IMG/VR virus record: IMGVR_UViG_3300020207_000109
Coordinates: 1 to 29,766 of that record
DNA: 29,766 nucleotides
Direction: 5' to 3' (one strand)
From: a virus
Part shown: in pieces, positions 23,908 through 27,342 of the stretch
How the letters are laid out: the number at the start of each line of letters is the position of its first letter
Numbering within the stretch: the stretch's first letter is position 1
Notes under the pieces: model-generated
The model's input: only the letters and a program-made list of their open reading frames with translations
Database searches by the model: none
What the model was told of the DNA's origin: nothing
Translations under genes and position numbers: made by a program

Positions 23908-25011
23908 ATGTTGGATGCACTTAAACAACTTTTTGAAGGAGCCGGACTAAGCGAAGAAGTCTCTGCTGAAATTCAAGAAGCTTGGAATAGCAAGATTAAA
24001 GAAAATCGCTTGCAAGTGACAGCCGAACTACGTGAAGAATTTGCTGAAAAGTATGAGCACGACAAGCAGGTTATGACCGAAGCAGTTGATTCTATGATCT
24101 CAGACAAACTAGCTGAAGAAATTTCAGAACTAGCTGAAGATCGTAAGCAACTAGCAGAAGCAAGAGCAAAGTATGCAGTAGCAATGCGTGAAAATGCAGA
24201 CTTACTGAAAAACTTTGTTGTTAAGCAATTGGGTTCAGAAATTAACGAACTTCACGAAGATCAAAAAGCAATGGCTGACAAATTTTCCAAGTTAGAAGAA
24301 TTTATTGTAGAAGCATTAGCTAAAGAAATTGGTGAATTCTATGAAGATAAGAAAGATTTAGCTGAAACAAAAGTACGTTTAGTACGTGAAGCTAAAACCA
24401 AGTTTGCAGAAGTTAAGAAAACTTTTGTAGAAAAGAGTACTAAAGCGGTAGCGGAAGCAGTTGAGAAGGGTCTTAAGAAAGAGATTTCAACACTGAAAGA
24501 AGATATCGAAACTGCTCGCAGAAATGATTTCGGACGTAAACTATTTGAAGCGTTTGCAAACGAATATCAAAATAGCTACTTGAACGAAAAGTCTGAAACA
24601 GCAAAACTACTTAAAGTAGTAGAGCTTAAAGACAAGCAATTAGCTGAAGCAAAAGCGTCTGCTGATGAAAAGGCACAACTAGTTGAAAGCAAAGATGCAG
24701 AAATTAGACGTGCAAAAGATCATGCAACACGCACAGCTACCTTAAATGAATTACTAGGTCCACTTAGCGGTTCACAAAAGGAAATCATGAACGACTTACT
24801 GGAATCAGTACAAACAGCGAAGTTAACTTCGGCGTTTGAAAAATACTTGCCTAGCGTAATGGCTGGCAACACTCCAGAAAAGCAAAAGGCAACACTCACT
24901 GAAGGCAAAGAAGTAACAGGCAACAAAGAAACTATCGATAGTGACATCAGCAAGCAAGGCTCGTTCACAGAGAACGTAGTCGACATTAGACGTCTTGCTG
25001 GAATTAAATAA
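23908..25011 (+). CDS. 22: Prohead scaffold (core) protein gp22
   Basis: This 367-aa protein is almost wholly helical and charged, with long runs of Glu, Lys and Ala and coiled-coil heptads, as expected for the major internal scaffold around which gp23 assembles and which gp21 degrades before DNA packaging. The start MLDALKQLFEGAGLSEEVSA and repeated motifs such as LAEEISELAEDRKQLAEA and FVVKQLGSEINELHEDQK fit the marine T4-like gp22 group. T4 gp22 is 269 aa. The C-terminus carries NVVDIRRLAGIK. AGAGGAG precedes the ATG; gp23 follows after 10 nt. Confidence 0.9.
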   Translation: MLDALKQLFEGAGLSEEVSAEIQEAWNSKIKENRLQVTAELREEFAEKYEHDKQVMTEAVDSMISDKLAEEISELAEDRKQLAEARAKYAVAMRENADLLKNFVVKQLGSEINELHEDQKAMADKFSKLEEFIVEALAKEIGEFYEDKKDLAETKVRLVREAKTKFAEVKKTFVEKSTKAVAEAVEKGLKKEISTLKEDIETARRNDFGRKLFEAFANEYQNSYLNEKSETAKLLKVVELKDKQLAEAKASADEKAQLVESKDAEIRRAKDHATRTATLNELLGPLSGSQKEIMNDLLESVQTAKLTSAFEKYLPSVMAGNTPEKQKATLTEGKEVTGNKETIDSDISKQGSFTENVVDIRRLAGIK

Positions 25012-25021
25012 GGAGAATATA

Positions 25022-26194
25022 ATGTCAGAACTATTAACAGGACGCTGGCAGGATACAAAAACAGCACTTCTTGAAGGCCTTTCAGGCAACAAAAAATCAG
25101 TGATGGACGTTGCTTTGGAAAACACTAAGAAGTACTTAACTGAAACAGCATCGGCAGGTGCTACTTCAGCAGGTAATGTTGCAACTCTTAACAGAGTTAT
25201 CCTACCCGTTATTAGACGTGTAATGCCCACAGTTATCGCAAACGAGATTGTAGGCGTTCAACCAATGACTGGCCCAGTTGGTCAAATTCACACTCTACGT
25301 GTACGTTACAGCGACACAGCTGATGACGCAGTAGCAGGTGAAGAAGCACTATCACCATTCAAGATTGCTCTTGGATATTCAGGTGATGAAGCTGGCTCAG
25401 ACGCAGGTGCGGCAAACGCAACAGGAGCTCTTGAAGGTACAGCTGGTAACAGACTAAGCATTCAGATCTTAAAGCAAACTGTAGAAGCGAAATCCAGAAA
25501 GCTATCAGCTCGCTGGACTTTTGAATCTGCACAAGATGCACAAGCTCAACAAGGCATTGACATCGAAGCTGAGATCATGGCTGCTCTAGCTCAAGAAATT
25601 ACCGCTGAAATCGACCAAGAAGTTCTTGAATCACTTTACAGTTTAGCAGGTTCAGCTGAATCAGACGTACAGTTTGACCAGGCTGCCGTTTCAGGTACTG
25701 CTACATTCGTAGGTGACGAACACGCGGCACTAGCTGTTATGATTAACAGAGCGGCAAACAAAATTGCTCAAAGAACTAGACGTGGTGCTGGTAACTTTGC
25801 AGTTGTTTCGCCACACACTCTAACTGTACTACAGTCTGCAACAACTTCAGCGTTCGCAAGAACAACTGAAGGTTCTTTTGAAGCTCCAACTAACACTAAG
25901 TTTGTTGGTACTTTAAACAGTGCAATGAAAGTATATGTAAACTCATATGCTTCAGACAGCAAAGACGTACTAGTTGGTTACAAAGGCTCAAGCGAATCAG
26001 ATGCGGCGGCATTCTATTGCCCATACATCCCGCTAATGAGCTCAGGTGTTGTACTTGATCCATCAACATTCGAACCAGTCGTATCATTCATGACACGTTA
26101 TGGTTATGTTGAGTTGAACAACACTGCGTCATCACTAGGTAACGCGGCAGACTACTTAGCAAGAGTAAGCGTAGCAAACGTTTCATTCAGCTAA
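25022..26194 (+). CDS. 23: Major capsid protein gp23
   Basis: This 390-aa major capsid protein of the gp23 family starts at the ATG at 25022 (MSELLTGRWQD), preceded by AAGGAG; a longer frame to 24995 overlaps gp22 and lacks a ribosome site. Conserved parts include RVILPVIRRVMPTVIANEIV (residues about 58-77), GVQPMTGPVGQIHTLRVRY, a central GIDIEAEIMAALAQEITAEI, and the C-terminal PYIPLMSSGVVLDPSTFEPV followed by SFMTRYGY. It is shorter than T4 gp23 (521 aa), probably because it lacks the T4 insertion domain. Leu16-Leu17-Glu18 fits the gp21 cleavage rule near the N-terminus (inference). A strong terminator follows 24 nt after the stop. Confidence 0.97.
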   Translation: MSELLTGRWQDTKTALLEGLSGNKKSVMDVALENTKKYLTETASAGATSAGNVATLNRVILPVIRRVMPTVIANEIVGVQPMTGPVGQIHTLRVRYSDTADDAVAGEEALSPFKIALGYSGDEAGSDAGAANATGALEGTAGNRLSIQILKQTVEAKSRKLSARWTFESAQDAQAQQGIDIEAEIMAALAQEITAEIDQEVLESLYSLAGSAESDVQFDQAAVSGTATFVGDEHAALAVMINRAANKIAQRTRRGAGNFAVVSPHTLTVLQSATTSAFARTTEGSFEAPTNTKFVGTLNSAMKVYVNSYASDSKDVLVGYKGSSESDAAAFYCPYIPLMSSGVVLDPSTFEPVVSFMTRYGYVELNNTASSLGNAADYLARVSVANVSFS

Positions 26195-26218
26195 GATATA
26201 GTTGTAAAACAAAATTAA

Positions 26219-26245
26219 GGGCAGTGGCAACACTGCCCTTTTTTT
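26219..26245 (+). terminator. Intrinsic terminator after gp23
   Basis: Perfect 8-bp stem GGGCAGTG/CACTGCCC with GCAA loop, followed by seven T. It ends the capsid operon. Confidence 0.95.
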
Positions 26246-26273: not shown

Positions 26274-26420
26274 ATGGCTCGTGTTAAATTTAATCCGAAC
26301 ATAGAAGTACACGAAACTACAAAAAAGAAAACATCAATCGGCGGCGGAAGAATATCTACTTGCATGATGAATAAAAGTAAAAAACGTAGTTACAAAAAGT
26401 ATCGTGGACAAGGCAAATAA
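26274..26420 (+). CDS. 48-aa basic protein downstream of gp23
   Basis: This short frame starts MARVKFNPNIEVHETTKKK and ends KKRSYKKYRGQGK. It has many Lys/Arg residues, no membrane segment, and a purine-rich AAAGG before the ATG. Small basic proteins with an N-terminal RVKFNP and a C-terminal KYRGQG occur in marine T4-like phages as far as I recall. It could bind nucleic acid or the acidic scaffold, but the role is unknown. It lies just after the gp23 terminator, so it needs readthrough or an unseen promoter. Confidence 0.65.
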   Translation: MARVKFNPNIEVHETTKKKTSIGGGRISTCMMNKSKKRSYKKYRGQGK

Positions 26421-26422
26421 CA

Positions 26423-26430
26423 GATAAATA
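26423..26430 (+). promoter_or_regulatory. Late promoter for the riboswitch transcript
   Basis: GATAAATA with expected +1 at 26436, exactly one base before the 5' arm of the glutamine aptamer (26437). This exact fit supports both assignments. Confidence 0.7.
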
Positions 26431-26435
26431 ATATT

Positions 26436-26480
26436 ACGTTCATCCTACGGGACGGAAGTAGCATAATGCGAAGGAACGCA
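26436..26480 (+). promoter_or_regulatory. Glutamine riboswitch (glnA / Downstream-peptide class)
   Basis: The sequence fits the glutamine-binding aptamer consensus: P1 arms CGTTC (26437-26441) and GAACG (26474-26478), P2 TCC-TAC-GGGA, the conserved core GGGACGGAAGTAG (26449-26461), a short P3 GCA-TAA-TGC, and GCGAAGGAACGC at the 3' side. This class is known from cyanobacteria and marine metagenomes, where it precedes glutamine synthetase, other nitrogen genes or short downstream peptides. Here it precedes a 32-aa frame. Ligand and class come from established knowledge; the effect on expression is not visible. Confidence 0.85.
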
Positions 26481-26507
26481 CTTTAACCCTTTAACTAGGA
26501 GAAGTGT

Positions 26508-26606
26508 ATGAGTAAATATACCCTTTGGTGCTACACAAGACTTTTCAGACAGCACCATATAGAAAAAATTAACTTTTTGGTAAGAAAAAGGTTGACTTCT
26601 GCGTAG
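26508..26606 (+). CDS. 32-aa downstream peptide under the glutamine riboswitch
   Basis: This short frame begins MSKYTLWCYTRLFRQHHIEK and ends in a basic segment FLVRKRLTSA. AGGAG lies 6 nt upstream of the ATG. It starts 28 nt after the aptamer, matching the Downstream-peptide arrangement. Its last codons overlap the -35 box of the ncRNA promoter. In cyanobacteria, short proteins under this riboswitch include glutamine synthetase inhibitors (IF-type); I do not see convincing similarity to those here, so function is open. Confidence 0.65.
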   Translation: MSKYTLWCYTRLFRQHHIEKINFLVRKRLTSA

Positions 26607-26620
26607 CAATTTGCTATATT
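26592..26620 (+). promoter_or_regulatory. Sigma70-type promoter for the 26627 RNA
   Basis: TTGACT (26592-26597), exactly 17 bp, then TATATT (26615-26620). It has the same form and spacing as the two consensus promoters of gp55 and gp47. Expected +1 is 26627. Confidence 0.75.
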
Positions 26621-26626
26621 ATACTT

Positions 26627-26871
26627 AATATAAAGGCGACGGCTTTTATAGTGTAGTGCAAGGAAGAGGCGTTTACCAGAGCGTCGAACTTGGCTAGTTA
26701 GGGGTGGTACCCAGGCATGGTAGTAGAAATACGCTGTGTCACATCGCTCTACCGAGCGGAACTAGGCTACTGGGGTTTCAGATGGTATCGGGTCCCCGGT
26801 TTGCAGGAAAACCTAATCCTGTCTACACAATTTATTAAAAGGCTTACAGCGAGAGTTGTAGGCCTTTTTCC
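26627..26871 (+). ncRNA. Apparently undescribed structured RNA of about 245 nt
   Basis: A transcription unit without a plausible gene: sigma70-type promoter upstream and intrinsic terminator at the end. The 5' end folds into an 8-bp hairpin (26629-26636 with 26643-26650) whose loop CGACG (26637-26641) is complementary to CGTCG at 26682-26686, a likely pseudoknot. Further pairs are CTAGTT (26694-26699) with AACTAG (26760-26765), GGGT/ACCC (26702-26712), TCGCTC/GAGCGG (26744-26759) and CAGG/CCTG (26804-26821). The region looks more GC-rich than the neighbouring genes. I found no signature of tRNA, tmRNA, RNase P RNA, 6S RNA or a group I intron. Because the promoter is of host type, it may be made early, before the late genes around it. 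Confidence 0.65.
26839..26871 (+). terminator. Intrinsic terminator of the ncRNA
   Basis: A 10-bp stem (26839-26848 with 26857-26866, one G-U pair) and 8-nt loop, followed by a T-rich tract. It would also stop transcripts coming from the riboswitch promoter. Confidence 0.9.
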
Positions 26872-26877
26872 TTTTTA

Positions 26878-26885
26878 GATAAATA
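26878..26885 (+). promoter_or_regulatory. Late promoter for the virion protein operon
   Basis: GATAAATA, expected +1 near 26891, right after the ncRNA terminator and before a leader of about 88 nt leading to the 26980 gene. Confidence 0.65.
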
Positions 26886-26890
26886 CTTTT

Positions 26891-26979
26891 GTCAGATAGT
26901 GTGCCGCAGGGCGGACTTATGCTGAACCAACAGCGTAGCGACTAGAACTCGCATCGGACTTCTAATAAGGAGAAAACAA
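26891..26979 (+). promoter_or_regulatory. Structured leader of the 26980 gene
   Basis: Three small hairpins fit within the leader: CCGC/GCGG (26904-26914), ATGCTG/CAGCGT (26919-26936, 6-nt loop) and GCGA/TCGC (26938-26952). The heptamer CGGACTT occurs twice (26912 and 26955 regions). AAGGAG then precedes the ATG. It may stabilise the mRNA or sense something; no known riboswitch core is visible. Confidence 0.4.
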
Positions 26980-27342
26980 ATGGGAAGACCACTTAATAAA
27001 AGATACTTTGGTGCAACTGGTGCGTCAGACGCAACAGTTCCAGTAAGATTTCACGACGGATCAAGCCTAATTGAAGGTTACATTGTAGAACAAAAAGGTT
27101 CTAATAAATTTAAATGTTCAAACGACGGTGACACAATTGAGCGTACTTGTTTCTTAACAAGCGACGGAAGCACACCTAATGCTAACAACGAATGTCAAAT
27201 TATTGGCATCGGTGCAGGCGGTGCGGCTATTGCTATTGCTAAAATTACAGGACGTAAAGCAGTTGACTATGATGGAAATTCTTATACATGGGCAACTGAA
27301 GATGACTCTACAGAATCGCTACTAAGATTAACAGCAATCTAA
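26980..27342 (+). CDS. Conserved small virion-type protein (MGRPLNKRYFG family)
   Basis: This 120-aa protein starts MGRPLNKRYFG and continues with beta-rich, Gly-rich sequence, ending with YTWATEDDSTESLLRLTAI. Proteins with the LNKRYFG start are frequent in marine phages and are usually unassigned. It has no signal peptide or catalytic motif. As first gene of a late unit followed by fibre-like proteins, it is likely structural (inference). Strong AAGGAG precedes the ATG. Confidence 0.65.
   Translation: MGRPLNKRYFGATGASDATVPVRFHDGSSLIEGYIVEQKGSNKFKCSNDGDTIERTCFLTSDGSTPNANNECQIIGIGAGGAAIAIAKITGRKAVDYDGNSYTWATEDDSTESLLRLTAI

Follow-up and report, generated by a model that had tools for sequence, protein, structure and literature searches.

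A manA RNA in the late head region of an ocean-type phage is probably a self-contained noncoding RNA gene

In the late head region of an ocean-type phage, a copy of the RNA family manA is very probably expressed as a self-contained noncoding RNA gene with a promoter and a terminator of its own. The copy lies in a 29,766-nt virus record, referred to here as the window. Since its description in 2010, manA has been catalogued as cis-regulatory and as a candidate riboswitch; what is new is that, judging by its flanking signals, it is built as its own gene in the window phage and in many relatives, as opposed to the catalogued regulatory leader. Sequence comparison supports the family membership, the fold, the recurrence of promoter and terminator, the lack of an antiterminator relation and the presence of units that consist of RNA genes only. 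Such an RNA would probably act in trans. If manA is truly a free RNA, ligand hunts by way of the downstream genes would be misdirected, and pull-down or knockout of this single-copy phage RNA would be apt. Its carriers, T4-like phages of SAR11-type bacteria and of marine picocyanobacteria, abound in the oceans.

Results

Three RNA modules at Rfam gathering thresholds, a glutamine riboswitch, manA and freshwater-2, lie between gp23 and the gene that starts at position 26980 (Table 1). The 245-nt unit singled out in the original prediction is the manA module, and the prediction of a host-type promoter among late genes holds, the gene upstream being gp23. As read from the sequence motifs, the manA module has a host-type promoter, whereas both flanking modules have late-type motifs; passages of PMC3037559 give the T4 late promoter motif as TATAAAT. 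Freshwater-2 scores above its cut-off and has its 3′ end at the start codon of the 120-aa gene, for which comparison with PHROG and Pfam gave no match. Behind the terminator-like hairpin that follows gp23, a 48-aa ORF (26274–26420) matches PHROG 17967, a PHROG without assigned function, and the glutamine riboswitch with its late-type promoter motif precedes a 32-aa ORF, riboswitch and ORF together spanning 26435–26606.

Table 1 Features of the region downstream of gp23, with positions in the window
Feature	Position	Strand	Details
gp23 major capsid protein gene	24995–26194	+	Pfam Gp23, 3.5e-98; upstream gene
Terminator-like hairpin after gp23	26217–26240		
T4-late-promoter-like GATAAATA before glutamine riboswitch	26423–26430	+	Close to T4 late motif TATAAAT
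Glutamine riboswitch (RF01739), separate module	26435–26482	+	Rfam 51.3 bits, cut-off 35
Small ORF (P0003), 3′ of glutamine riboswitch	26508–26606	+	32 aa
Sigma70-type promoter of manA	26592–26620	+	TTGACT (26592–26597), 17-nt spacer, extended −10 TATATT (26615–26620)
Possible closing helix P0, 5′ strand	26625–26630	+	Partner 26833–26838, 6 bp
manA RNA (RF01745), full-length	26629–26832	+	59.4 bits
Pseudoknot helix of manA, 5′ strand	26653–26656	+	Partner 26823–26826; GTAG/CTAC
Intrinsic terminator directly 3′ of manA	26837–26868	+	14-pair stem and T-rich tail
Late-promoter-like GATAAATA between manA terminator and next gene	26878–26885	+	
Freshwater-2 RNA (RF02980), leader up to ATG of next gene	26900–26982	+	Rfam 74.7 bits, cut-off 49.9
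Next gene (P0001)	26980–27342	+	120 aa, function unassigned

The match to the Rfam covariance model of manA covers positions 1–192 of 192 and exceeds the gathering score of 55.2 bits, with an E value of 1.8e-14. The original prediction held that the RNA fits no known class and named an Rfam hit as the result that would speak against it; such a hit is what we found, and its full length, including the pseudoknot, rules out that the RNA forms a new class of its own, apart from the known families. The score in the window does lie only 4 bits above the Rfam cut-off, and several relatives fall below it (44.7–49.8 bits), but with all model positions matched and same-type relatives reaching 73.7 bits, the chance of a new class is negligible. 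Beyond manA, freshwater-2 and two glutamine riboswitch families, a relaxed Rfam search of the window returned only a DapZ match below its cut-off (22.8 bits). The wcaG RNA (RF01761), a separate Rfam family that passages on cyanophages describe alongside manA as a second putative cis-regulatory RNA, is absent from the window in the Rfam search.

The 2010 description by Weinberg and colleagues presents manA as a motif from marine sequences and cyanophages that lies in potential 5′ UTRs, and rates it as certainly an RNA, as cis-regulatory and as a probable riboswitch (PMC2864571). Its Rfam type label is Cis-reg. Rfam release 14.3 revised the structure (PMC7779021), and the manA of cyanophage S-CREM1 was reported as cis-regulatory, with a regulatory role 'to be further verified' (PMC9964418). 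The passages on manA in these three articles name neither a ligand nor a tested function, which is the sense in which the orphan status originally proposed survives for an RNA whose class is known. Treatment of manA as a free RNA was not found in the passages of literature searched for manA, among which few subscription journals were covered. The window copy has its sequence, fold and pseudoknot in common with the Rfam family, which is known from T4-like marine phages. The Rfam family is described as a 5′ UTR element or possible riboswitch, whereas the window copy is followed by its own terminator and is not placed as a leader; the Rfam model also lacks an outer helix, P0, that promoter-driven relatives have.

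By blastn, the sole phage match to the window copy was Pelagibacter phage Mosig EXVC030M, placed in Kyanoviridae (87% over 108 nt), and a divergent pelagiphage-type copy (L112) had no match among phages. Two filtered motif scans of viral contigs gave at least 164 distinct manA copies (at least 205 before redundancy removal), the window's own included, of which at least 73 are pelagiphage-type, a working label that rests on Mosig and not on identified contig hosts, and at least 91 cyanophage-type. The first motif yielded at least 93 distinct matches (15 incomplete), from which those without TCACAT downstream were dropped; the second yielded at least 119, of which 86 were kept after removal of those without GGTGGT. 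Promoters were counted in the 73 and 89 copies of the two types with enough upstream sequence, and terminators in the 67 and 80 in which the 3′ end could be recognised and flank was present.

The multi-helix fold of manA recurs in the relatives with compensatory changes. In the window, the minimum free energy of the 245-nt unit is −93.5 kcal/mol, compared with −70.6 (sd 4.3) in 200 shuffles (z −5.3), which rules out a chance fold and bears out the prediction of a structured RNA. Across 45 non-redundant relatives (45 of 67 copies, near-duplicates removed), 89.9% of the cells of the manA helices are paired, as against 71.3% in shuffled and 33–50% in slid versions, and 50 of 59 base pairs changed on both sides, in agreement with the covarying helices that had been anticipated; RNAalifold, unaided, found 46 pairs, 38 of them with double changes. 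The pseudoknot that had been attributed to the 5′ hairpin is real, with 97.2% of cells paired and all four pairs changed on both sides (helix 4 of the alignment), but it is formed by the strand that follows this hairpin (P1) and the 3′ end of the RNA, and the hairpin loop is not involved. Only two plus-strand ORFs of at least 20 aa lie inside manA (44 and 53 aa), and the changes in relatives conserve base pairs, which rules out a protein-coding reading and agrees with the earlier view that the unit contains no plausible gene.

The outer helix P0 would join the first transcribed bases to those just before the terminator, usually as AUAAGCAA/UUGCUUAU. In relatives, seven of its eight pairs show double changes, yet only 65% of cells are paired. 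In a sample of 49 of the 73 pelagiphage-type copies, the copies' own strands gave helices of 7.0 bp on average, against 6.1 when swapped and 5.4 when shuffled. P0 is stronger in relatives than in the window, where it is weak because it overlaps hairpin P1, and none was seen in the manA copies behind tmRNA.

The promoter and the strong terminator that had been predicted both stand: TTGACT-17-TATATT matches 10 of 12 consensus positions and has the TG of an extended −10, so placed that transcription would plausibly start near 26627, 7 nt past the −10, and the terminator region (26836–26876) folds with −19.6 kcal/mol (z −5.8). By these sequence signals, manA is flanked by its own promoter and its own terminator, as a stand-alone RNA gene would be. 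Both recur. A TTG.. / TATA.T pair was seen by eye at the promoter site in all ten copies first aligned, and among the matches listed an upstream promoter score of at least 9/12 was reached by 52 of 73 pelagiphage-type copies (random 22/197) and 86 of 89 cyanophage-type copies (random 18/228), with a short distance from the −10 to manA in both classes. Terminators within 80 nt after manA were present in 44 of 67 pelagiphage-type copies among the matches listed, compared with 0/197 at random, and 29 of 66 have the late-promoter-like motif [GTA]ATAAATA no more than 115 nt 3′ of manA (random 32/1320). Hairpin terminators are rare in the cyanophage-type copies (10/80, control 6/228, among the matches listed); in addition to these ten, 27 of the 80 have a U-tract right after manA (T5 within 18 nt; random 55/1600). 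Directly 3′ of manA, five contigs (L219, L221, L232, L255 and L271) have a hairpin-like AGACCTAAGATGCAACTC...GGGCAGATGGTCT, or similar, followed by T-runs, an element that recurs in several cyanophage contigs.

Additionally, some manA copies keep company with tmRNA and tRNA genes. In one contig (L107), tmRNA is followed by tRNA-Gly(ACC), about 5 bases further on by manA and then by a terminator, and the unit contains no protein gene; another (L173) reads as the same layout with tRNA-Gly, which is all that ARAGORN lists there. In two further contigs (L113 and L137), manA at gathering threshold stands behind a permuted tmRNA, and a protein gene starts 22–28 nt after manA or nearby. Permuted tmRNA genes occur in the T4-like phage contigs L107 (3394–3808), L113, L137 and L112, with tags such as ANDDFAPVDYALAA; the Mosig tmRNA is likewise permuted, with the tag GEDNFALAA.

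Elsewhere the genomic setting varies. A gp23-like gene lies at most 2 kb upstream in 45 of 73 pelagiphage-type copies among the matches listed, some of whose contigs had entered through a capsid search, and manA occupies the slot after the capsid gene in five annotated cyanophages, MED4-213, metaG-MbCM1 (where that gene is annotated gp24), S-SSM5, P-HM1 and P-RSM4. Two contigs (L005 and L054) repeat the succession of glutamine riboswitch, manA and freshwater-2, each module reaching its gathering threshold; in two others (L108 and L111), the riboswitch and freshwater-2 pass but manA does not, scoring 49.6 bits in L108 and being recognised by motif only in L111. manA is optional at this locus: of 48 capsid loci with 1 kb or more of downstream sequence, 7 contain it. 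The proteins encoded downstream fall into 51 clusters among the matches listed, built on automatically chosen ORFs of which some may be spurious. The largest is the family of the window's own 26980 gene, with 21 members among the matches listed; next come cyanophage-type families of 14 and 11, whose starts resemble gp32 and transaldolase, the genes annotated after manA in P-HM2, P-RSM6 and P-TIM40.

Exactly one manA was found in each of 15 isolate genomes, in at least seven genomic settings (14 of 45 matching records were taken, hand-chosen for variety; P-SSM4 and P-RSM3 are the same species), and among seven long contigs five have one manA and two have none. The glutamine riboswitch, as a control, is also single-copy wherever it is found (10 of 23 records), and the single copy of manA is for this reason not decisive; copy number was dropped as proof of a trans-acting RNA.

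Discussion

If the window copy is an RNA gene, host RNA polymerase would start at the sigma70-type promoter just 5′ of manA, produce an RNA of about 205 nt with several helices and a pseudoknot, and halt at manA's own terminator, and the flanking late modules would use their own late-type promoter motifs. The RNA may then be made early or throughout infection, and may have the regulatory role with separate timing that was originally suggested; it may also be stable, and its action in trans would most likely proceed through binding of a host or phage protein or ribonucleoprotein.

The catalogued alternative is a cis-acting riboswitch, in which metabolite sensing by the fold would act through the terminator at 26837–26868 to control read-through into the downstream gene. 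The Cis-reg type in Rfam and the rating in the passages of Weinberg 2010 (PMC2864571) favour it, as does the closeness of the terminator behind manA. A riboswitch expression platform of this kind calls for a mutually exclusive antiterminator, however, and pairing of 32 terminator 5′ arms with their own manA showed no excess over swapped controls (−7.58 with their own manA and −7.84 when swapped; the own pairing was the stronger one in 11 of 32 arms, and in 2 of 6 cyanophage-type arms). This is therefore evidence against an attenuator, and the attenuator reading was rejected on this test. Nor does manA appear, from the sequence signals, to share a transcript with a gene for which it could serve as 5′ UTR: a terminator intervenes, and the gene that follows is equipped with a late-type promoter motif and a leader RNA of its own. 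The downstream genes are moreover very diverse, and the all-RNA units leave nothing to regulate before the terminator. We consider a riboswitch unlikely at this locus, and the reading of the whole family as leaders appears weakened. Still less probable is a promoter-proximal element that modifies RNA polymerase to ignore terminators, as the put RNA of phage HK022 does. Such an element would explain the position of manA near +1 of many units, and the short distance from the −10 in both classes and the variable downstream content fit it, but manA closes the units of L107 and L173, after tmRNA and tRNA, instead of opening them, and follows tmRNA in further contigs, and the strong terminators right after it would be pointless.

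Leader use is nevertheless likely for part of the family, because cyanophage-type terminators are few and in 19 of 80 cyanophage-type copies among the matches listed an ORF starts no more than 60 nt away, with no sign of termination; in Mosig, too, manA is immediately followed by a rubrerythrin gene, and no terminator intervenes. It is conceivable, if not the reading we prefer, that manA has a dual use with the same fold and the same partner, many cyanophages employing it as a leader and pelagiphages as a free RNA. Among the matches listed, 36 of 80 cyanophage copies show no sign of termination or of tRNA or tmRNA, and 52 of 67 pelagiphage copies show one. Dual use departs from the stand-alone RNA gene solely for other members of the family and posits the same free RNA at the window locus. 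With comparable caution, manA as a whole might be no riboswitch family but a noncoding RNA that T4-like marine phages use in trans, made by the host polymerase and working with the translation or ribosome-rescue machinery; leader-like members would then be the same RNA gene placed before other genes.

A role in translation or ribosome rescue is suggested by the all-RNA units of tmRNA, tRNA and manA, and the company of tmRNA and tRNA genes is a hint towards the translation machinery. In some contigs, manA is in one transcription unit with the tmRNA and tRNA genes that T4-like marine phages carry; it differs from these genes in having neither a tag frame nor a tRNA fold and is separate from them in Rfam. 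The stable RNAs C and D of phage T4, small RNAs of unassigned function encoded in a tRNA gene cluster, resemble manA, by description only, as small phage RNAs encoded beside tRNA genes.

The neighbouring modules recur as well. Leaders like freshwater-2 (RF02980) follow gp23 in related contigs, and a pattern search gave 20 distinct riboswitch loci with two recurring types of small protein downstream, one of about 28–32 aa with the pattern M..(F/Y)T.WC...L.(K/R)QH and one of 50 aa with MN.(R/K)DFE..RKK. A 2020 study of pelagimyophages reports that riboswitches were not found (PMC7029224). In contigs of prokaryote genomes, 3 of 112 motif matches (L426, L430 and L443) pass the manA signature check; these copies look real and are possibly phage DNA in the assemblies.
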